Positions 12,528-23,528 of a stretch of 42,550 nt of DNA are shown piece by piece. The stretch's first letter is position 1. Every line of letters begins with the position of its first letter. Under the pieces are notes generated by a model, which was given only the letters and a program-made list of their open reading frames with translations, was not told the origin of the DNA and did no database searches. The stretch is taken from the NCBI GenBank assembly GCA_026707615.1, contig JAPOWL010000399.1:1-42550 (forward strand), given 5' to 3'. Source of the stretch: Acidobacteriota bacterium (GTDB taxonomy: Bacteria > Acidobacteriota > Vicinamibacteria > Vicinamibacterales > UBA8438). Made by a program: the position numbers and the translations under genes.

Positions 12528-13052
12528 TCAGCCCCCCGCGGATTCCCGGGCTCGGTCGGCTCCGCCGTGCGCCGTCGGCGCGCCCTGGCTCGTCGGGGCG
12601 GCGGCGTCCGGCAGCCCGAAGAAGAGCGTGAGCCAGCCGTTCAGGTCCTCGTACGCGACTGCCTTGCCGGTCGAATGGAGGTAGGCGCGCATGTTGGCCG
12701 AGAAGCCGGCGCCGTCGAAGACGACGATGCCGGGGATGGGCCACGCGGCGATGTCCTGGATGGTCGCCGGGATCTTCTCCTCCGCCGACCCGCCGGTGCC
12801 CTGGAACTTGCACTCGATGCCGAGGCTGCGCTCGGAGTCGGGGTGGCGCAGCACCAGGTCGATGCGGCGCTCGGCTCCCCAGAGCCTCCGGGCCACCCGG
12901 ACCTGCGTTCTCGCCCGCAGCCCGAGGCCGCGCGCCAGGGTCTCCACCGCCCGCTCCAGCTCGGCGCCGCTCGTGATCGTCGTCCGACCGGAGGGAGCGC
13001 CGCCTCCACTGCGCTTCTCCGGGAACATCGTCGCCGGATCCTCGAGCTTCAT
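12528..13052 (-). CDS. PD-(D/E)XK nuclease, probable restriction endonuclease partner
   Basis: A 174-residue protein with a nuclease-like core: RRIDLVLRHPDSERSLGIECKFQ, in which the Asp and the E-x-K form the PD-(D/E)XK catalytic pattern, then SAEEKIPATIQDI and PGIVVFDGAGF. ATG 13052 is chosen because the upstream frame is antisense-like over the methyltransferase. It lies 50 nt downstream of an adenine methyltransferase gene on the same strand, the usual arrangement of a type II restriction-modification pair. The N-terminal region (residues 25-60) looks helical. The function is inferred from the motif plus neighbourhood, not from recognising a specific enzyme family. Confidence 0.66.
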   Translation of the reverse strand: MKLEDPATMFPEKRSGGGAPSGRTTITSGAELERAVETLARGLGLRARTQVRVARRLWGAERRIDLVLRHPDSERSLGIECKFQGTGGSAEEKIPATIQDIAAWPIPGIVVFDGAGFSANMRAYLHSTGKAVAYEDLNGWLTLFFGLPDAAAPTSQGAPTAHGGADRARESAGG

Positions 13053-13102
13053 GTCGGACTCTCTGCGTCTGGGCGACAGGACCGCGTTCCCATCGCCCGC
13101 GC

Positions 13103-14122
13103 TCACGCGCGCTCGGGAGCGACGTTGGTGATCACGTACTCCTCGATCGGCCCCCGGCGTGCCGCTTTGGAGTTGATCGCCCGGCGCGCGGCAACCCGGT
13201 GGGCTCGAACGCCGGCCCCCTCCGCCTCCGCGTTGCCGTCGTAGAGGTCGCGGATCTCGGGTGCGGTGGAGTTGCTCAGGACGACGTGGCAGTGGCGCTC
13301 CGCCAGCTCGATGACGACCCGCTGGAGGTGCTGCTGGTCGCCGGCGTCGAACCGATCGGCCGTGTACGACGTGAACGACGCGGTGGAGCTCAGCGGGGCG
13401 TAGGGCGGGTCGAGGTAGACGAAGTCGCCGGGCTGCGCGACGTCGAGCACCGCGTCGTACTTCGCGTAGTCCACCTTCGCCGCGAGCGTCGACAGCGCCT
13501 CCGACGCTCGCCGGAGGTTGTGCTCGTCGCAGATCCGGGGATTCCGGTACCGTCCGCGCGGCACGTTGAACAGTCCGCTGGAGTTCACCCGAAAGAGGCC
13601 GTTGAAGCCGGTCCGGTTCAGATAGATGAGCATCGCGGCCAGCGTCGCCGTATACCGCTCGGCCTGAGCCCGGCCGTCGTCGAGAATCCCGCCTCTTGCC
13701 CCGTTGAACCGTTCCCGAACGCCGTAGTAGTGCTCCTCCGGCGCGTCGACGCGTTCGGCCGCCAGCTCCTGCAGGTGGTCGATGACGGCCTCGCGATTGT
13801 CGCGAAGCTGCCGCCAGCAACCGACGAGGTCCGGGTTGACGTCGGTGAGCCGGACTCGGCGCCGGCGGACGGCGCGACGACCGACCAGGTCGAAGAAGAC
13901 GGCGCCGCTGCCGACGAACGGCTCGTGGTAGGTCTCGAACCGCGGGGGATAGAACCGCCGCAGCTCGGGCAGAAGCTGCCGCTTTCCGCCCGCCCACTTC
14001 AGGAACGGACGAGCCGGCCGGTCGCCGGGCCGCCTGCCGCTCTCCGTCGCGTGGCTTCCGGAGGGGGTCACGCCGTGTCCGGGCGCGGTGTCGCCGCCGG
14101 CTCGCTGCGGGGCCGAGTCCAT
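13103..14122 (-). CDS. Dam-family adenine-N6 DNA methyltransferase
   Basis: A class-alpha (Dam/DpnIIA-like) methyltransferase of about 339 residues. Motifs in order are FLKWAGGKRQLLPEL (motif X), YHEPFVGSGAVFFDL (AdoMet-binding motif I), RLTDVNPDLVGCW, a target-recognition region with NRTGFNGLFRVNSSG, and the catalytic YLDPPYAPLS (motif IV). Adenine in GATC is a common target of this family, but the target here is not determined. I chose ATG 14122, which has an extended -10 (TGC-TACGAT) just upstream. GTG 14071 is a shorter alternative that keeps all motifs. With the downstream nuclease gene it likely forms a type II restriction-modification system. Confidence 0.88.
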   Translation of the reverse strand: MDSAPQRAGGDTAPGHGVTPSGSHATESGRRPGDRPARPFLKWAGGKRQLLPELRRFYPPRFETYHEPFVGSGAVFFDLVGRRAVRRRRVRLTDVNPDLVGCWRQLRDNREAVIDHLQELAAERVDAPEEHYYGVRERFNGARGGILDDGRAQAERYTATLAAMLIYLNRTGFNGLFRVNSSGLFNVPRGRYRNPRICDEHNLRRASEALSTLAAKVDYAKYDAVLDVAQPGDFVYLDPPYAPLSSTASFTSYTADRFDAGDQQHLQRVVIELAERHCHVVLSNSTAPEIRDLYDGNAEAEGAGVRAHRVAARRAINSKAARRGPIEEYVITNVAPERA

Positions 14123-16927: not shown

Positions 16928-17332
16928 GTGGGTTCGAGGCATGCCGACTGGTTCCGACAGGCGGAAGCCGACCTGCGGATGGCTGGCCAGGCCCGCGACG
17001 GCGCTGCGCACGACTGGGCCTGCTTCGCCGCCCAGCAGGCTGCCGAGAAAGCGCTCAAGGCAGTCCTCATGAGTCGGGGCGAAGACGCCTGGGGCCACAC
17101 GGTGACGGCGCTACTGGGCGTCGTTGCGCCGGACGGAGCGGCCGCCGAGGACTTGGTCGTGTGCGCCAAGACGCTCGACAAGCACTACATCCCGACGCGG
17201 TACCCCAACGGGCTCGATGCGGGAGCGCCGACCGACTTCTACACCCGGAAGGACTCCGACGATGCCATCGCCTGCGCGGAGCGGCTCATCGGCTTCGCTC
17301 GTGGTCAAGTCGAACAACGAAGCGGCGGTTGA
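16928..17332 (+). CDS. HEPN-domain protein (toxin-like half of a HEPN/MNT pair)
   Basis: A 134-residue HEPN protein. It opens with DWFRQAEADLRMAGQA, has the family hallmark CFAAQQAAEKALKAVL, and ends with the TLDKHYIPTRYPNGLDAG segment common in this subfamily. A possible R-x6-H is present in SRGEDAWGH, but the RX4HXY motif of HepT toxins is not seen. The GTG at 16928 is chosen because the domain begins immediately there and a TACAAT box sits 6 nt upstream; the longer upstream frame has no family sequence. The nucleotidyltransferase gene overlaps its 3' end by 32 nt. HEPN proteins in such pairs are often RNases neutralised by the partner. Confidence 0.86.
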   Translation: MGSRHADWFRQAEADLRMAGQARDGAAHDWACFAAQQAAEKALKAVLMSRGEDAWGHTVTALLGVVAPDGAAAEDLVVCAKTLDKHYIPTRYPNGLDAGAPTDFYTRKDSDDAIACAERLIGFARGQVEQRSGG

Positions 17333-17711
17333 GCGCGCGGTGCTCGCCTGGGCGCGGAGCGTCGGCGACCGGCACCCGGAAGTGCGCCGCATCCTCTGGT
17401 TCGGGTCCCGCGTCACCGGGATTCCGGCGCCGGGCAGCGACGTCGACCTGTGCCTGGTGCTGGCGCAGTCCGACAAGCCGTTTCGCGAGCGGATCGGCGA
17501 CTACCTGCCGTTCGGGTTCCCGGTGGGCCTGGATCTGTTTCCCTACACGCAGGCCGAGCTCGAACGCTTGCGGCGCGAGCACCCCTCCTGGCACCGGGCG
17601 ATGACGTCGGGGGTCGACCTGTTGACGCTCCCTGACGGTGCGCGAGAATCGACGCCGATCCGGCGTCGCCGGCCGGGAGTGGCGGGCGGCTCGACCTCGA
17701 CAATGCGGTGA
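17301..17711 (+). CDS. MNT-type nucleotidyltransferase (antitoxin-like half)
   Basis: A minimal nucleotidyltransferase of about 136 residues. The motif ILWFGSRVTGIPAPGSDVDLCLV has the GSX10DXD pattern of MntA antitoxins, with a third acidic position likely in VGLDLFPYTQ. In described HepT/MntA systems the MNT protein AMPylates the HEPN toxin. The start GTG 17301 lies inside the HEPN gene, a 32-nt overlap that implies coupled translation. The last 30 or so residues are Arg/Gly-rich and may be a nonconserved tail. Confidence 0.83.
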   Translation: MVKSNNEAAVERAVLAWARSVGDRHPEVRRILWFGSRVTGIPAPGSDVDLCLVLAQSDKPFRERIGDYLPFGFPVGLDLFPYTQAELERLRREHPSWHRAMTSGVDLLTLPDGARESTPIRRRRPGVAGGSTSTMR

Positions 17712-17777
17712 CCGTGCGATCGCGAATCTCGAGTCGGATCAGATCAGCGACTACCTCCTCCCGAGGACGACGAAACG

Positions 17778-18596
17778 ATGCTCCGGCCTGACTCTTCCCC
17801 ACTCGATCCCGGCGGGCCTGCATCCGTGACGACCGGATCGGGGCCTCTACGGCGCGCCGGCGGGCAGCTCCTCGGCGCGCGAAAGGTCCAGGAGGACGGG
17901 TACGGCTTCATCGACGGGACCACGCTCGACCCTGCCGGCCGGCACCCGGTGGTGATCGTGGCGGACGGGATGGGCGGCCACGTCGGCGGCGAGATGGCGA
18001 GCAGACTGGCGGTGCGTGCGTTCATCGAGGCGTACGGCCCCGACGGCGCCCCCGCCGGTCGGCTGCGCGCCGCGCTCGACGCCGCCAACCGGGCCATCGA
18101 CGACGCCGTCAGCAAGAACCTCTCGCTCGACGGCATGGGCGCCACGCTGGTGGCGGCGGCGGCGACCACGGACGGACTCGAGTGGATCAGCGTCGGCGAT
18201 TCTCCGCTGTACCTCTATCGTGGCGGGCGCCTGAAGCGCCTCAACGAAGATCACTCCATGGCGCCGATCATCGAAGCCCTGCGCGAGAGCGATCCGGCGG
18301 CGGCCAGCGGGCTGAACCCGAACGAGCTCCGCTCCGCCCTGGTCGGATTCGCAATCAGGAAAGTGGACGCGTCGCCGATGCCCGAGCTGCTGCTGCCGGG
18401 CGATCTGATCGTCGCCGCGACCGACGGCCTGAACACGCTGAACGTCGAGGAAACCGCTTCGATCATCTCGGACCGCTGCGGCGACGGGCCGCAAGCGGTG
18501 ACGGACGCGCTCCTGGCCGCGGTCGCCGCCCGCGCCGTTCCGACGCAGGACAACGCGACGGTGGCGATAATCGATATGCCCGACGGACCCTCATGA
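17778..18596 (+). CDS. PP2C-type Ser/Thr protein phosphatase
   Basis: A 272-residue PPM/PP2C phosphatase. Metal-binding motifs are VVIVADGMGGHVGGEMAS, GMGATLVAAA, LEWISVGDSPLYLYR, LIVAATDGLNTL and the final TQDNATVAII. The conserved Asp in DGMGG is present, so it is probably active. It lacks a kinase, forkhead or sensor domain, and no Ser/Thr kinase gene is visible nearby, so its partner is unknown. ATG 17778 has GAGG about 10 nt upstream. It lies 66 nt after the MNT gene on the same strand and may be transcribed with the HEPN/MNT pair. Confidence 0.9.
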   Translation: MLRPDSSPLDPGGPASVTTGSGPLRRAGGQLLGARKVQEDGYGFIDGTTLDPAGRHPVVIVADGMGGHVGGEMASRLAVRAFIEAYGPDGAPAGRLRAALDAANRAIDDAVSKNLSLDGMGATLVAAAATTDGLEWISVGDSPLYLYRGGRLKRLNEDHSMAPIIEALRESDPAAASGLNPNELRSALVGFAIRKVDASPMPELLLPGDLIVAATDGLNTLNVEETASIISDRCGDGPQAVTDALLAAVAARAVPTQDNATVAIIDMPDGPS

Positions 18597-18659
18597 ACGA
18601 GTGCCGTTGGGCCCCGACGTCACGTGGCGAGTCGGGTGCCGGGCGGAACGGGAGGGTCG

Positions 18660-18821
18660 CGAGCTCCAGCTCGACGACATCTTCTCGTCCTGAGGGTGAG
18701 CGCCGTACCGGTCCCGCGCCACGAGACCAAGGGAGACCGGTCGATGCCTGCCCACGATCGGGCGGGAACGGTACGAATGCTCCCGCCGGGCCGGCAACGC
18801 CGGCGCCGGGCCGGGGCGCGA
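18660..18821 (+). repeat. Duplicated ~160-bp block, copy 1 (begins with a Uma2 C-terminal remnant)
   Basis: This block matches 20390-20550. The last ~104 nt (from CCACGAGACCAAGGGAGACC) differ at only two positions. The first bases read ELQLDDIFSS then a stop in one frame, the typical C-terminus of a Uma2 protein, so copy 1 carries the tail of a lost Uma2 gene. Both copies contain AAGGGA, then ATG at a good distance, and inverted GCCGG motifs. The rest of 18597-18840 shows no gene. Confidence 0.85.
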
Positions 18822-18827
18822 GCTGTG

Positions 18828-18844
18828 CTGACTCCGGGAGTCAG
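18828..18844. other. Palindrome at the Uma2 stop codon
   Basis: CTGACTCC-G-GGAGTCAG is a perfect 8-bp inverted repeat around one base. It includes the minus-strand TGA of the Uma2 gene at 18841-18843. Confidence 0.5.
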
Positions 18845-19410
18845 GGAAGCAGATCGTCGACTGCGATCGGTGTGTCGGGGCGAGCCAGCGGCGCGACCTT
18901 GTCCCCGGATGCATGGTTGGTGACGCTCCGGTAGACGTCTCCAGCCGGATCGCGGTAGACCTCGAGACGGTGCTCGGGGAGGGCGAGGATCCAGTACTCG
19001 GGAATCCCGGAGCGCGCGTACAGGCGCCGCTTGACCGTCCGGTCGTACCGCAGTGATTCGTTCGAGACCTCGACGACCAGCACCGCCGACGTGGGATGGC
19101 CCCTGTCGTAGTCGCGGATCGCGCCCGTCACGACGGCCACGTCCGGTTCGGGTTCCGAGTAGTCGTCGGCCGCCAGCGGGTGCTGTATCCGCACGTAGAA
19201 GCCGGGGCCGAAGACCCGCCGCAGGCAGTCGGCGACGAGGTCCACGCCGACCGTGTGGCTGACTCCCTCGGGTGTCATGGCGCTCAGCTCTCCGTCGACG
19301 AGTTCCAGCCTGGCGTCGGGCTCGAACGCGCCGGCCTCCACGGCACGGTCGTACTCGACCCGGCTCAGGCGGTAGTGGCGGACGGAGACCTCGGACCCGG
19401 CGGCCCTCAT
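18841..19410 (-). CDS. Uma2 family (DUF820) PD-(D/E)XK endonuclease-fold protein
   Basis: An intact Uma2 protein of 189 residues. Family signs are YRLSRVEYDRAVEAGAF, LELVDGELSAMTPEG followed by SHTVGV, EPEPDVAVVTGAIRD, LVVEVSNESLRYDRTVKRRLYA and GIPEYWIL. The nuclease-like residues are the Asp in EPDVAVV, the Glu in VVEVS and the Lys in VKRRLY. The biological role of Uma2 proteins is poorly known, although they are very common in multicellular and soil bacteria. I chose ATG 19410 because GGAGGAG lies 5 nt upstream; the frame would allow 11 more residues. A TACGAT box at 19423-19428 (minus) is a likely -10. Confidence 0.88.
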   Translation of the reverse strand: MRAAGSEVSVRHYRLSRVEYDRAVEAGAFEPDARLELVDGELSAMTPEGVSHTVGVDLVADCLRRVFGPGFYVRIQHPLAADDYSEPEPDVAVVTGAIRDYDRGHPTSAVLVVEVSNESLRYDRTVKRRLYARSGIPEYWILALPEHRLEVYRDPAGDVYRSVTNHASGDKVAPLARPDTPIAVDDLLP

Positions 19411-19543
19411 GACGGCTCCTCCATCGTAGCGCGGAACCGTCACCGTGGGCCCCCGCTTGGCGCCGCTCCCCGTCGCGGTTCCGTCGCCGGCCGTCCAGCC
19501 GAGGCGCCTCGACGGCGTGGTTGAACTCGACGCATCAGGCTTG

Positions 19544-19987
19544 TCATGGACCGAATCGGCGACTTGTCCCGAGTGCCTTCAGCTTCAGCAGCGGGTAGTC
19601 CTCGTAGCGCGGCGTCAGAGTCCGCATCGTGCAGTCCGCGATCAGGTCGAGTCTTTCGAGCACGACCTGGCCGATGAGGACCTCGCTCAGCGGGGGTCCA
19701 ACGACGCACTCCATCGTCATCGAGCGGTTGCCGATCTGCACCCCCACCGGGCCTGCTAGGGGGCGTTCCTCGCGGCGTTCGTCTACGTAGGTGACGAACG
19801 CGGTTCCCTGCGTCTCGAGCCCCAGGCGCTCGACCAGGTTCTGCGGGAGCACGAGCGTTACGGCGCCCGTGTCGACGATGCCGTCGACGGTCGCGCGTCG
19901 GATGTCGGCCTCGGCGCGGTCGCCGCGGCGGAAGTACTCGCGGTCCCCTGCGTTCTCCAGAATGACGTCAGCGTGAATCTCTCCCAT
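19544..19987 (-). CDS. Retropepsin-like (clan AA) aspartic protease, copy 1
   Basis: A 147-residue single-lobe aspartic protease. The catalytic motif is GIVDTGAVTLVLP (DTG), and the second-half glycine region is SEVLIGQVVLERLDLI. One DTG per chain means it should act as a homodimer, as in retropepsins. It resembles the bacterial/archaeal clan AA 'AF_0612-like' proteases. ATG 19987 is chosen by alignment with the second copy, since both begin MGEI. It is about 70% identical to the protein at 20616-21029 and lies in the opposite orientation. The C-terminus has an extra ~10 residues (ALGTSRRFGP) relative to the other copy. No signal peptide is seen. Confidence 0.85.
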   Translation of the reverse strand: MGEIHADVILENAGDREYFRRGDRAEADIRRATVDGIVDTGAVTLVLPQNLVERLGLETQGTAFVTYVDERREERPLAGPVGVQIGNRSMTMECVVGPPLSEVLIGQVVLERLDLIADCTMRTLTPRYEDYPLLKLKALGTSRRFGP

Positions 19988-20423
19988 CAGCGGCTCGATC
20001 CTACTACCCCCGCCCACCTGCTACCGTCGCGCGCCGAGCGGCGTGAACTGCGGGAGCTGTTGTCTGCCCCCTGCGACGTGGTTCTGTCCGACACCGACGT
20101 CGTGCAGCCGGACCTGCTGTTCATCTCCCGCGAACGCAGACATCTGCTGAGCGGCGGCGAGAACGTGCGGGGTGCGCCCGGCCTCATGATCGAGATCCTG
20201 TCTCCGACGACCGCGGACAGGGACCGGGGGGGCAAGCGGGAACTCTACGGCAGGTACGGCGTGACCGAGTACAGGCTGGTCGATCCGACAGCCGAGACCG
20301 TCTCGATCCATTGCCAGCGCGGGCGTGCCGGCACCCACCCTCACCTTCGGCCGCGAACAGACGCTTCGCTCGCCGCTGCTCGCCGGCCTCGAGCTCCAGT
20401 TCGACTACATCTTCCCATCCTGA
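19988..20423 (+). pseudogene. Broken Uma2 family gene
   Basis: A damaged Uma2 gene. One frame encodes LSAPCDVVLSDTDVVQPDLL, GLMIEILSPTTADRDRGGK and RYGVTEYRLVDPTAETVSI, which is the middle of a Uma2 protein. The natural C-terminus (LRSPLLAGLELQFDYIFPS then TGA at 20421) is in another frame. A small indel between about 20310 and 20330 therefore disrupts the gene. The usual N-terminal 50 or so residues are missing; that position is occupied by the start of the divergent protease gene. It was probably broken by the rearrangement that duplicated the protease. Confidence 0.78.
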
Positions 20424-20550
20424 GGGGAGCGCCGCACCGGCACCCGCGCCACGAGACCAAGGGAGACCGGTCGATGCCTGCCCACGATCGGGCGGGAACG
20501 GTACGAATGCTCGCGCCGGGCCGGCAACGCCGGCACCGGGCCGGGGCGCG
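20390..20550 (+). repeat. Duplicated ~160-bp block, copy 2
   Basis: This is the partner of 18660-18821. It begins at the C-terminal codons of the broken Uma2 gene and runs through its 3' flank. The 3' two thirds are almost identical to copy 1, while the Uma2-coding part has diverged more. Downstream it leads into the second protease gene. Confidence 0.85.
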
Positions 20551-20615
20551 TCCCCTCGCGCGGGCACGTGCGTGGTATGGTGCCCGGACGGTCGGCAATC
20601 GAGGAGACTGGTCCC

Positions 20616-21029
20616 ATGGGGGAGATCGTCGCCCAGGTAGCGTTGGAGAATCCCGGCGACCGCGCCGTCGTCGAGCGCGGCTACGGCCAGGAGTCCGACG
20701 TCCGCCACTCGACCGTAGATGCCGTCGTTGACACGGGCGCGGTCATGCTCGTGCTTCCGCAGAACGTCGTCGAGCGCCTGGGCCTGGAGACGCAACGCAC
20801 GGTCGTCGTGACGTACGCGGACGAGCGGCGGGAGGAACGACCGCTCGCGGGCCCGGTGACCGTTCAGATCGGCAACCGATCCATGAGCACGGATTGCGTC
20901 GTCGGTCCCCCCCTGAGCGAACCCCTGATCGGCCAGATCGTGCTCGAAGCCCTCGATCTGATCGCCGACTGTGCGAACCGCACCCTCACGCCGCGGTTCC
21001 CTGACTATCCGCTGCTGAAGCTGAAGTAG
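20616..21029 (+). CDS. Retropepsin-like (clan AA) aspartic protease, copy 2
   Basis: A 137-residue single-lobe aspartic protease with AVVDTGAVMLVLPQN as the catalytic DTG motif and EPLIGQIVLEALDLI as the C-terminal glycine region. ATG 20616 has GAGGAGA about 8 nt upstream. It is the same length and register as copy 1 except for a missing C-terminal extension, and ends YPLLKLK. Only 6 nt separate its stop from the start of the J-domain membrane protein, so the two are almost certainly cotranscribed. The substrate is unknown. The operon suggests a link between proteolysis and the membrane J-protein. Confidence 0.86.
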   Translation: MGEIVAQVALENPGDRAVVERGYGQESDVRHSTVDAVVDTGAVMLVLPQNVVERLGLETQRTVVVTYADERREERPLAGPVTVQIGNRSMSTDCVVGPPLSEPLIGQIVLEALDLIADCANRTLTPRFPDYPLLKLK

Positions 21030-21035
21030 GACGGA

Positions 21036-22838
21036 ATGGAACGGCCGGACGTCGATCCGTACGAAGTCCTCGGCCTCGAGCCGGGAGCGACGTACGACGA
21101 GATCCGGGCGGCGCACCGCCGCTTGGCGTTGAAGCACCATCCCGACAAGAACCCCGGAGACAAGACTGCCGAGTGGATCTTCAAGGCGGTTCAGAAGGCG
21201 TACGAGACGCTGCGCCGGGAGCAGGCTGAACGGGAAGAGCGCAGCGAGCGGGAGCGTCGAGAGCGGGCTGAACGGGCTCGCCGGGAGCAGGAGCAAGCGG
21301 AGCGAGATGAGCGCGAGCGCCGGGAGCGGGAGCAGGCGGCACGGGAACGGGCGGAACGTGAGCGTCGAGAACGGGCTGAGCGAGTGCGCCGGGAGCAAGA
21401 GCAGGCCGAACGACGAGAACGAGAACGCTGGGAGCAGGAGCAAGCCCAGGCGGCGCGGGACCGCTGGGAACGTGGCCAGCAGGAGCAGGCCGAGCGGGCT
21501 GGTCGGGAGCAGGCTGCGCGGGAACAGGACCGCTGGGAGCAGGAGCAAGCCCAAGCGGCGCGGGACCGCTGGGAACGTGGCCAGCAGGAGCAGGCCGAGC
21601 GGGCTCGTCGGGCGGAGGAAGAGGCCGAGCGACGAGAGCGCGAACGAGGCACATCAGGGTGGTGGCCTGTCTTGGTCCGCGCGTATGTGGTGATCGCAGT
21701 CGTCGGCGTGGCGCTCGCTGCGTACTTTATCGGGCGAGACGTAGTTCGCGGTCCCGCTGTGCGGTGGAGCGGGGAGGAACCTGCCTCTGAGGCCACAGAG
21801 CCGGATCGCGATCGCCTCCAAGCGAACGCATCCATGTACTATGAGCGCGGCCGCCTCGCGCTGGAGGCGGAGGACTTCACAACCGCAGCCGACCTGTTCC
21901 GCCGCGGGCTCGCACTCCACCCGGGCAACCCGGCACTGCGGCATGCGCTCGGCATTTCCCTCTACTGGATGGGCGATACCGATGCGGCCGTCGCCGAGTT
22001 TGAGGAGACCCTTCGCCGGACCCCGCGACATGCCCTTGCCCATCTCAGCCTTGGCATCCTGCGCGCCCAGCAGCGACGCTATCGTGACGCGCTAACCCAC
22101 TTCGCCGCCGCGGCGGTTGTTGACCCCAGTCGGGTCGAGTCGCACGTCGGACAGGCCGAGATGCTCCGCAACCTGGGGGACTTGGAGGCGTCCGTGCCTC
22201 ACTGGCGACGCGCGGTGAGTCTCGACCCTTCCGACGCGGCTTCCTGGTTCGAGGGCGCTGCCGCGCTTGTCCGCCTCGAGCGCCACGATGAAGCGCGCGC
22301 GTGGCTCGCCGGAGCGCTCGAGCGGCACCCGGAGCACGTCCAGCTCCGCGAGCTGGCAGATGCGCTCAACGAGCGACCACACCAACGCCAAGTCCAAGAA
22401 CTGGGACGTCGAGGCGCGCGGTCGTCGTTGCAGCCGTCAGCGCGCGTGCGGAGCGAGGGGCGCGAGGTTGAGGTGGTAGGTTGGCGCCAGAACCAACGAC
22501 GAGGTCTGCCGTCCAGAGCCGCCGAATCAGCCGCCGGTGCCGCGGTTCCCGAGCCGGTCCGCGTCGGCGGCAACATCAGCCCGCCGACCAAGACGCGCGA
22601 CGTATCGCCCGTGTATCCCGAGGTGGCCCGCGCGGCGCGGGTCGAGGGCGTCGTGATACTCGAGGCGACCATTGGACTGACCGGGACGGTGACCGATGTC
22701 AACGTGCTGCGCTCGGTGCGGTTGCTCGACGAGGCGGCCGTTGCCGCCGTGCGCCAGTGGCAGTACACGCCGACTCTGCTGAACGGCGTGCCGGTTCCCG
22801 TGATCATGACGGTGACGGTGAACTTCTCGTTACGGTGA
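21036..22838 (+). CDS. Membrane J-domain protein with charged helix, TPR repeats and TonB C-terminal domain
   Basis: A 600-residue multidomain protein. Residues 8-65 are a J domain with the HPD motif at 34-36 (KHHPDKNPGD), so it should stimulate a DnaK-type Hsp70. Residues about 66-205 are almost only Arg, Glu, Gln and Ala, a probable single alpha-helix or coiled coil. A transmembrane helix follows at about 210-230 (VVIAVVGVALAAYFIG). Residues 266-448 contain about five TPR units (YYERGRLALEAEDFTTAADL, then ALRHALGISLYWMGDTDAAV, and so on). Residues 513-600 are a TonB C-terminal domain with VEGVVILEATIG and WQYTPTLLNGVPVP. With the J domain in the cytoplasm, TPR and TonB parts would be periplasmic. 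The start ATG has AGGA upstream and follows the protease stop by 6 nt. I do not know of this exact architecture. Confidence 0.9.
   Translation: MERPDVDPYEVLGLEPGATYDEIRAAHRRLALKHHPDKNPGDKTAEWIFKAVQKAYETLRREQAEREERSERERRERAERARREQEQAERDERERREREQAARERAERERRERAERVRREQEQAERRERERWEQEQAQAARDRWERGQQEQAERAGREQAAREQDRWEQEQAQAARDRWERGQQEQAERARRAEEEAERRERERGTSGWWPVLVRAYVVIAVVGVALAAYFIGRDVVRGPAVRWSGEEPASEATEPDRDRLQANASMYYERGRLALEAEDFTTAADLFRRGLALHPGNPALRHALGISLYWMGDTDAAVAEFEETLRRTPRHALAHLSLGILRAQQRRYRDALTHFAAAAVVDPSRVESHVGQAEMLRNLGDLEASVPHWRRAVSLDPSDAASWFEGAAALVRLERHDEARAWLAGALERHPEHVQLRELADALNERPHQRQVQELGRRGARSSLQPSARVRSEGREVEVVGWRQNQRRGLPSRAAESAAGAAVPEPVRVGGNISPPTKTRDVSPVYPEVARAARVEGVVILEATIGLTGTVTDVNVLRSVRLLDEAAVAAVRQWQYTPTLLNGVPVPVIMTVTVNFSLR
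21426..21605 (+). repeat. Internal 105-bp-period direct repeat in the charged-helix region
   Basis: Positions 21426-21500 and 21531-21605 are identical except for one base over 75 nt. They encode WEQEQAQAARDRWERGQQ and following residues twice, with a 35-residue period. Such near identity indicates recent expansion or conversion. Confidence 0.88.
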
Positions 22839-22908
22839 GCGAGGTAGGACTCGCCAGAGTAAGTGCCAGAGGCGGCACGGTGGCGCCCCACGGATGCGGG
22901 AGTCACGC

Positions 22909-23379
22909 ATGGAATGGACCGACGTGAAGGCTCGGGTGCGGTGCGCCTTCAACGCGTTGGAGCACCAAGATCTCCACCTGCTTGAGAACGACGCCCACGA
23001 GCGCACGATCTGCGCTCGCTTGGCCGACCACCTGCGATCCGTCTTCCCCGGGTACCACGTGGACGTCGAATACAACCGGCACTGCATGGACCCCAAGACG
23101 ATCGAGGTGAATCCTGAAAGGGACGAACAGTTCGTCTACCCCGATGTGATCGTGCACCACCGGGGGAACGACGACAGTAATCTCCTCGTCATGGAGTTGA
23201 AGAAGTCCACGAACCCCGAGTCACGAGATCCCGACCGGAGGAAGCTGAACCACCTCGTAGAGCAGTATGGGTACAAGTTCGCAGTGCTGGTTGACCTTCC
23301 GATCGGTGGAGACCTGATTACCACGCCGCGCCCGTGGCCCGTTTGCCGCATCCACCCGAGCAGCCCGCGGGCGACCTGA
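22909..23379 (+). CDS. PD-(D/E)XK-like conserved hypothetical protein
   Basis: A 156-residue protein with a nuclease-like core. D79 lies in VYPDVIVHHRG, and E96 and K98 in LLVMELKKS, giving the D-x(n)-E-x-K pattern; GYKFAVLVDL follows as the next strand. The N-terminal half (ALEHQDLHLLENDAHERTIC and LADHLRSVFPGYHVDVEYN) belongs to a widespread family of small hypothetical proteins that I recognise by pattern only. ATG 22909 is preferred over 22894 for its GGGAG site. GC content appears lower than in neighbouring metabolic genes, consistent with transfer. It may be a defence or repair nuclease, but no partner is visible. Confidence 0.72.
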   Translation: MEWTDVKARVRCAFNALEHQDLHLLENDAHERTICARLADHLRSVFPGYHVDVEYNRHCMDPKTIEVNPERDEQFVYPDVIVHHRGNDDSNLLVMELKKSTNPESRDPDRRKLNHLVEQYGYKFAVLVDLPIGGDLITTPRPWPVCRIHPSSPRAT

Positions 23380-23528
23380 GCACCAGATCCACGTGGCGGC
23401 CGATCGGGCGGCCTCCCCGTCGTCATGTGGCTTCGAGGCGACCGGGCCGTCGCGCGCGCCCCTTCCACGGTGGACCGACTGATCGCAACCGGTAGCCGGT
23501 GACCCGTGCCGGGAGGTTGTGGCTGTTC

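Follow-up and report, generated by a model that had tools for sequence, protein, structure and literature searches.

A membrane J-domain protein with a TPR and TonB C-terminal tail, encoded beside a retropepsin-like protease in an acidobacterial genomic island

Class C J-proteins, such as DjlA, DjlB and DjlC of E. coli, have only the J domain in common with DnaJ and are regarded as Hsp70 targeting factors; they carry many added domains, some have transmembrane regions, and the J domain is sometimes a late addition (PMC8215388). Here we describe a locus from an Acidobacteriota metagenome-assembled genome (MAG) that encodes a protein of this kind; the whole stretch of 42,550 nucleotides that was analysed (contig JAPOWL010000399.1) is referred to as the window. 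From DjlA, DjlB and DjlC the window protein would differ by a single transmembrane (TM) segment, a long R/E helix and a putatively periplasmic tail made of TPRs and a TonB C-terminal domain (TonB_C). A preliminary description of this DNA had called the arrangement one that is not known from the literature. For the specific combination this still holds, as a TonB C-terminal domain together with a DnaJ domain was not found in the literature searched, the survey of prokaryotic J-protein architectures by Barriot et al. 2020, which lay outside that search and may list it, being set apart. For the kind of protein it does not, because class C proteins with added domains, TM regions and late J domains are already on record in PMC8215388.

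Bacterial retropepsin-like proteases, such as Rickettsia APRc (PDB 5c9f) and the proteins described by TIGR03698, share with the product of the gene upstream of the J gene a predicted fold, a single DTGA and a LIG motif, although the window protease differs from TIGR03698 (clan_AA_DTGF) in that its score of 47.9 is below the curated cut-off of 57.35. TonB energy transducers are alike in their TonB_C, which in the window protein is about 94% identical to that of the TonB of the genus, but an anchor of J domain, arm and TM segment stands in place of the TonB N-terminus, and the TM motif of TonB is missing. That motif, SxxxH in the N-terminal TM segment, is the one for ExbB/ExbD. Finally, ER/K single alpha-helices resemble the charged arm of the J-protein in their i/i+4 pairing of E and R with no hydrophobic heptad, while the arm, a putative single helix, differs in sitting within a bacterial J-protein.

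Architecture of the J-protein

The protease frame lies on the + strand, with its ATG at 20616 and its stop ending at 21029, and is followed after a spacer of 6 nt (21030-21035) by the J gene, also on the + strand, which has its ATG at 21036 and a stop that ends at 22838. The close spacing of a retropepsin-like protease gene and a J gene had been claimed beforehand, and is borne out by the coordinates and by the Pfam matches and predicted fold of the protease. The same is true of the composition of the J-protein: Pfam, hydropathy and a structure model agree that its single intact frame of 600 codons encodes a J domain, an R/E arm, one TM segment, TPRs and TonB_C in one chain.

The J domain occupies residues 7-64 (21054-21227; Pfam DnaJ, 1.8e-19). 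It does contain the expected HPD motif, at residues 35-37, however, and not at 34-36 as previously given. Besides DnaJ, Pfam found no DnaJ C-terminal or zinc-finger family in the protein, and an HPD J domain with no other DnaJ domain would place it in class C. The J domain runs into an R/E-rich (R/E/Q/A) arm, residues about 63-205 (21222-21650), lying inside a predicted continuous helix (43-201). Pairs at i+4 number 26 for E-to-R and 26 for R-to-E, compared with 12.8 and 12.6 in shuffled sequences (0 of 2000 shuffles were as high); E/R pairs are strongly depleted at i+5 and mildly at i+3, E-to-R pairs at i+1 are also raised (25 vs 12.9 in shuffles), and inspection by eye found no hydrophobic heptad. 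We take this pairing to be the pattern of ER/K single alpha-helices. The DNA of the arm includes a direct repeat of 100 nt, 92% identical, at a spacing of 105 nt.

A single TM segment follows at residues about 207-237 (21654-21746), as judged from hydropathy and from a helix at 210-237 in the model, and then come TPR helices at residues 255-464 (21798-22427), where several Pfam TPR models match between about 268 and 440 and where the model is helical as well. A linker that is predicted to be disordered extends from 465 to about 505, with low confidence to 511 (22428-22547; pLDDT <50 for 465-511), and the chain ends with a TonB-derived piece, residues about 505-600 (22548-22835), in which TonB_C (PF03544) matches at 9.7e-21 over 524-599 and the model has strands from 519. 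All of these features are on the + strand. Since the model has a pTM of 0.33 (mean pLDDT 76.4) and was made from an input alignment of 13 partly unrelated rows, the relative placement of its domains carries no meaning.

The natural reading of this order is a topology with the J domain inside and the TPR/TonB_C part in the periplasm. The net charge is +1 over the 20 residues before the TM segment and -2 over the 30 residues after it, a small difference that fits the J domain inside and lends this weak support. With a TonB_C that would be in the right compartment if this topology holds, one may also consider a TonB-like energy transducer whose TM segment was replaced by the anchor of a J-protein. 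Yet the TM segment of the chimera, GWWPVLVRAYVVIAVVGVALAAYFIG, has no histidine and does not contain SxxxH, whereas the canonical TonB of a congener (G002) has SIAVH in its TM segment. Because the motif is missing, the J-protein is presumably not driven by ExbBD, and we consider a transducer hardly credible.

A chimeric gene and its relatives

Counterparts of the two tail pieces are found in separate genes of congeners. Residues 281-461 of a 471-aa TPR frame in G001 and G002 share 68% identity with the TPR part, and a shorter stretch in G003 shares 70%, while the TonB_C part is 93.5, 93.5 and 94.6% identical to the canonical TonB of G001-G003; by these comparisons, the J-protein of the window is a chimera. 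In the window's own genome the canonical TonB is represented by residues 1-114, 98% identical, ending at the last base of a contig (G000:C619:2679-3008), and no TPR source gene was found in this bin, which is 95.8% complete (the best match outside the window's piece, at matching coverage, is 42%).

A second MAG of the genus, G001, has the same protease at contig C437 (L041), followed by the J domain and the first part of the arm, with 96% DNA identity over 20548-21513. At the protein level the arm/TM stretch can be recognised there (56% over residues 121-233); the end with TonB_C is 93% identical over 22548-22928, while the TPR part, compared with the window, is absent. The TonB piece at this locus has its match further upstream in TonB than the piece in the window. 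Between the tails at the two loci dS is 0.11, vs 0.27 and 0.38 to the canonical TonB of G002, and since the tails are closer mutually than to canonical TonB, the capture of the TonB end seems to predate the split between the window and G001.

These data also bear on whether the fusion could be an artefact of assembly, as might be suspected in a fragmented MAG (691 contigs) whose canonical TonB is cut by a contig end, the more so as the G001 locus lacks the TPR part. Against this, another MAG has J domain, arm, TM segment and TonB_C at the same place, the dS values set the locus tails apart from canonical TonB, and identity between the TPR piece and the best TPR proteins found reaches only 68-70%, with no closer copy turning up in its own genome. 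We therefore regard an artefact as extremely improbable; the view that this is a fusion rather than a frameshift or misassembly is upheld.

The copy in G001 has fared differently. Alignment with the window shows 1 nt inserted within its J domain and 1 nt deleted within its TonB_C; its middle has a DNA identity of 37-46%, no better than unrelated sequence, and its pieces lie in three frames, i.e. the gene is frame-broken. As the neighbouring genes are open, this copy is likelier to be a real pseudogene than poor sequence, and a counterpart in three frames with an unrelated middle indicates that the J gene is dispensable in G001. From the arm to the TM segment, the gaps between the two copies (6, 18, 27 and 9 nt in one MAFFT alignment) are all multiples of three. 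Between the window and G001, J residues 1-54 have a high dN/dS (0.59) and the TonB_C tail an intermediate one (0.32), with few changes in either.

The closest rival to our preferred reading (see below) is that the J gene is a young chimera that has no selected function, produced by recombination in an unstable island, open in the window and decaying in G001. A frame-broken counterpart next to open neighbours is what one would expect in this case, as are the absence of the island from G003, its atypical GC3 and the patchiness of the J family, but 600 open codons with intact domains and gaps in multiples of three are not, and the TPR piece has a dN/dS of 0.14-0.25 against its three sources, although that value includes the time before capture. 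On balance, we hold this explanation to be possible but rather unlikely.

The J family to which the window gene belongs has a constant N-terminal cassette (J domain, charged arm, TM segment) and differing tails, and occurs at seven loci in 5 of 193 genomes of the class. Against a J-domain profile built from these loci, and searched in 162 genomes of the order, the seven score 111-132 bits and the next match 80 bits, a gap of about 30 bits to ordinary DnaJ, although the seven loci's own scores are partly so by construction, since the same seven built the profile. In a phylum sample of 396 genomes six pass the threshold, namely the window's, G208, which is outside the profile and has two copies scoring 120 and 110 bits, and four others with 85-88 bits; the two of these four that were read out (G165 and G400) look like ordinary DnaJ. 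With the tandem pair of G208, the family comes to nine loci. The pair (L155, G208:C9, 3578-6027) consists of short J-membrane genes, and the frame between them has no Pfam or PADLOC match. A codon-usage gene caller missed most of the J genes, and its lists were not used as evidence of absence.

Compared with the TPR and TonB_C tail of the window, the tail at G001:C437 is an unrecognised stretch followed by TonB_C, and that of L045 has seven Sel1 stretches. At the Pfam cut-off no domain was found in the tails of L193, the frame of which runs off its contig, L047, L057 and both L155 frames, where there are one to three hydrophobic segments; the scan covered all tails but that of L081, near a contig end. 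Among the matches listed, J and TonB_C are on one contig only in the window's genome (G000:C415) and at G001:C437. The J-family gene of L057 (G019:C3) stands beside an ISAzo13-type transposase frame. On viral contigs, 34 loci encode J domains, with 33-56% identity.

It is tempting to see in J domain, single-helix arm and TM segment a swappable anchor cassette. By repeated capture of periplasmic modules (TPR and TonB_C, another stretch and TonB_C, Sel1 repeats) it would have given rise to transmembrane receptors of one chain, which call Hsp70 to the inner membrane either where an envelope partner lies or in answer to it, and in-frame repeat expansion would have set the length of the arm. We put this forward tentatively, as a possibility well short of an even one.

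The protease and its linkage to the J gene

The protease has 137 residues, with DTGA at 39-42 and LIG at 104-106, and matches gag-asp_proteas (2.6e-9) and Asp_protease_2 (1.6e-8) in Pfam. Its AlphaFold2 model (pLDDT 88.8, pTM 0.80) has retroviral proteases as its best Foldseek matches (query TM-scores 0.48-0.57, prob 1.00), and Rickettsia APRc is found at rank 8 (prob 1.00, query TM 0.50, rmsd 9.5), while a PDB search by sequence gave nothing better than E 0.53. Among 28 related copies, 26 have DTG, L093 has DTA, and the match of L106 covers residues 47-137 only; an alignment of 27 rows, from which L087 (a near-duplicate), L093 (DTA) and L106 (a partial match) were left out, is invariant at D39, T40, G41 and G106. 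The modelled retropepsin fold, together with D-T/S-G, would make this a clan AA protease, of which dimeric and proteolytic action can be predicted.

Protease copies are dispersed and numerous: 11 of 28 genomes of the taxonomic family have at least one match at 1e-8, and of the 53 matches 13 are in G013. Of 72,556 plasmid records, just one carries a match, 32% identical. The window itself has a second copy, 75% identical by sequence comparison and also recognised by Pfam, on the opposite (-) strand at 19544-19987, with Uma2 after it. A 108-nt direct repeat, 98% identical (18713-18820 and 20443-20550), flanks Uma2 and this second protease, and DNA resembling a second Uma2, at about 20037-20550, has no clean frame in the window and is open in G001.

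The preliminary description treated protease and J gene as an operon, which as a conserved module is not upheld by their distribution. The protease adjoins the J gene at three of the nine J-family loci (the window, G001 and G024); at the other six its absence was judged by protease search, and for L155 of G208 from a reading-frame listing. Conversely, a tblastn search of 30 fetched protease loci found a J domain beside three copies (L083, L084 and L088, L103 being the same window stretch as L083), and comparing by eye the contigs of all 53 protease matches with the J matches, in the 28 genomes of the taxonomic family, gave the same three sites. A sigma-70 scan found no promoter, but as shuffles likewise gave 0.0 this carries no weight; the pair may be expressed and co-transcribed.

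Might the two products nevertheless work as a pair, the protease cleaving the J-protein or a client presented by DnaK at the membrane? The 6-nt spacing, an order shared by three loci from two genera, and the identity to the window's protease at the other two loci (99% and 84%) are in line with this. However, no adjacent protease was found at six of nine J loci, 27 of 30 protease copies lack an adjacent J domain of their own, and between the window and G001 the protease has a dN/dS of 0.028 (12 synonymous changes and one other), indicating strong constraint even where the adjoining J gene is broken. Thus the protease does not depend on the J gene next to it in G001, and we think a functional pair unlikely. 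A two-gene machine is not established, and the linkage appears incidental.

A variable island and the role of the J-protein

The J gene lies in a variable genomic island of about 5.9 kb (17650-23522), bordered on the left by a HEPN/nucleotidyltransferase pair and on the other side by a MaoC-like gene. Only 150 bp separate the counterparts of window positions 17649 and 23523 in G003 (L201), i.e. the island is absent, and GC3 is 0.64-0.89 in the measured island genes or gene parts vs 0.93-0.98 in six flanking genes. The HEPN and nucleotidyltransferase pair at the left edge (16979-17711) is aligned up to 17649 in G003 and mostly missing in G001. Further upstream, at 12531-14122, a gene with a PD-(D/E)XK nuclease domain stands beside a D12-class adenine methyltransferase, possibly a restriction-modification pair.

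At the same site G002, where contigs end, has a kinase-Hsp70 frame (L202:2-1648, G002:C643; Pkinase 4.2e-32, HSP70 1.4e-10) that is cut by the contig end, with near full-length matches in G019 and G013 and pieces in G020. The PP2C of the window shares 75% identity with one from G019 that neighbours kinase genes and a kinase-Hsp70 gene, in a cluster (L216, G019:C10) that holds two further kinase matches and, by eye, FHA-like genes. A dedicated Hsp70 partner for the J family was considered and rejected: among the five genomes of the class that have the family, only the match in G019 reaches the Hsp70 part.

Some genes of the island resemble defence genes. The one after the J gene (22894-23379), mostly missing at the G001 locus, matches PADLOC PD-Lambda-3_A at 5e-29, and Uma2 matches PDC-S03 at 1.6e-13; near the relatives of the J gene, 4 of 10 genes match (PDC-S01, AbiEii and AbiEi near L047, and DrmA on the contig of L045). 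The J-protein could accordingly belong, as a membrane protein, to an island of defence or mobile-element type, but neither it nor its protease matches any PADLOC family at 0.01. For the second protease copy PADLOC gives two weak hits (0.002 and 0.003), and for the PP2C of the island none. Since two of nine window genes outside the island (a methyltransferase and a DinG helicase) match as well, proximity to defence genes may be no more than chance on these counts, and we consider a defence role very unlikely.

The reading that we prefer, and to which we would give an even chance, is that the J gene encodes a young membrane-anchored J-protein of class C, whose periplasmic tail determines where on the inner membrane DnaK is recruited. 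The J domain would be cytoplasmic and carried at the tip of a stiff charged helix, the length of which, about 140-160 residues, would amount to some 20 nm in a straight form; the one TM segment would span the inner membrane, and a swappable module would face the periplasm, which in the window combines a segment of a TPR protein with the terminal piece of a TonB gene. This TPR/TonB_C part would bind an envelope partner, and the J domain would bring housekeeping DnaK to the cytoplasmic face at the partner's place, the protease being an independent, dispersed enzyme that came to lie upstream by chance. An envelope protein-quality module, as first proposed, is a conceivable role. If this reading is true, the J-protein would connect the cytoplasmic Hsp70 system, physically and within one chain, with contacts in the periplasm. 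It would also represent a natural case of gene fusion equipping new membrane proteins with a chaperone-recruiting domain, one for which sister genomes show the likely source genes, the empty site and a decaying copy.
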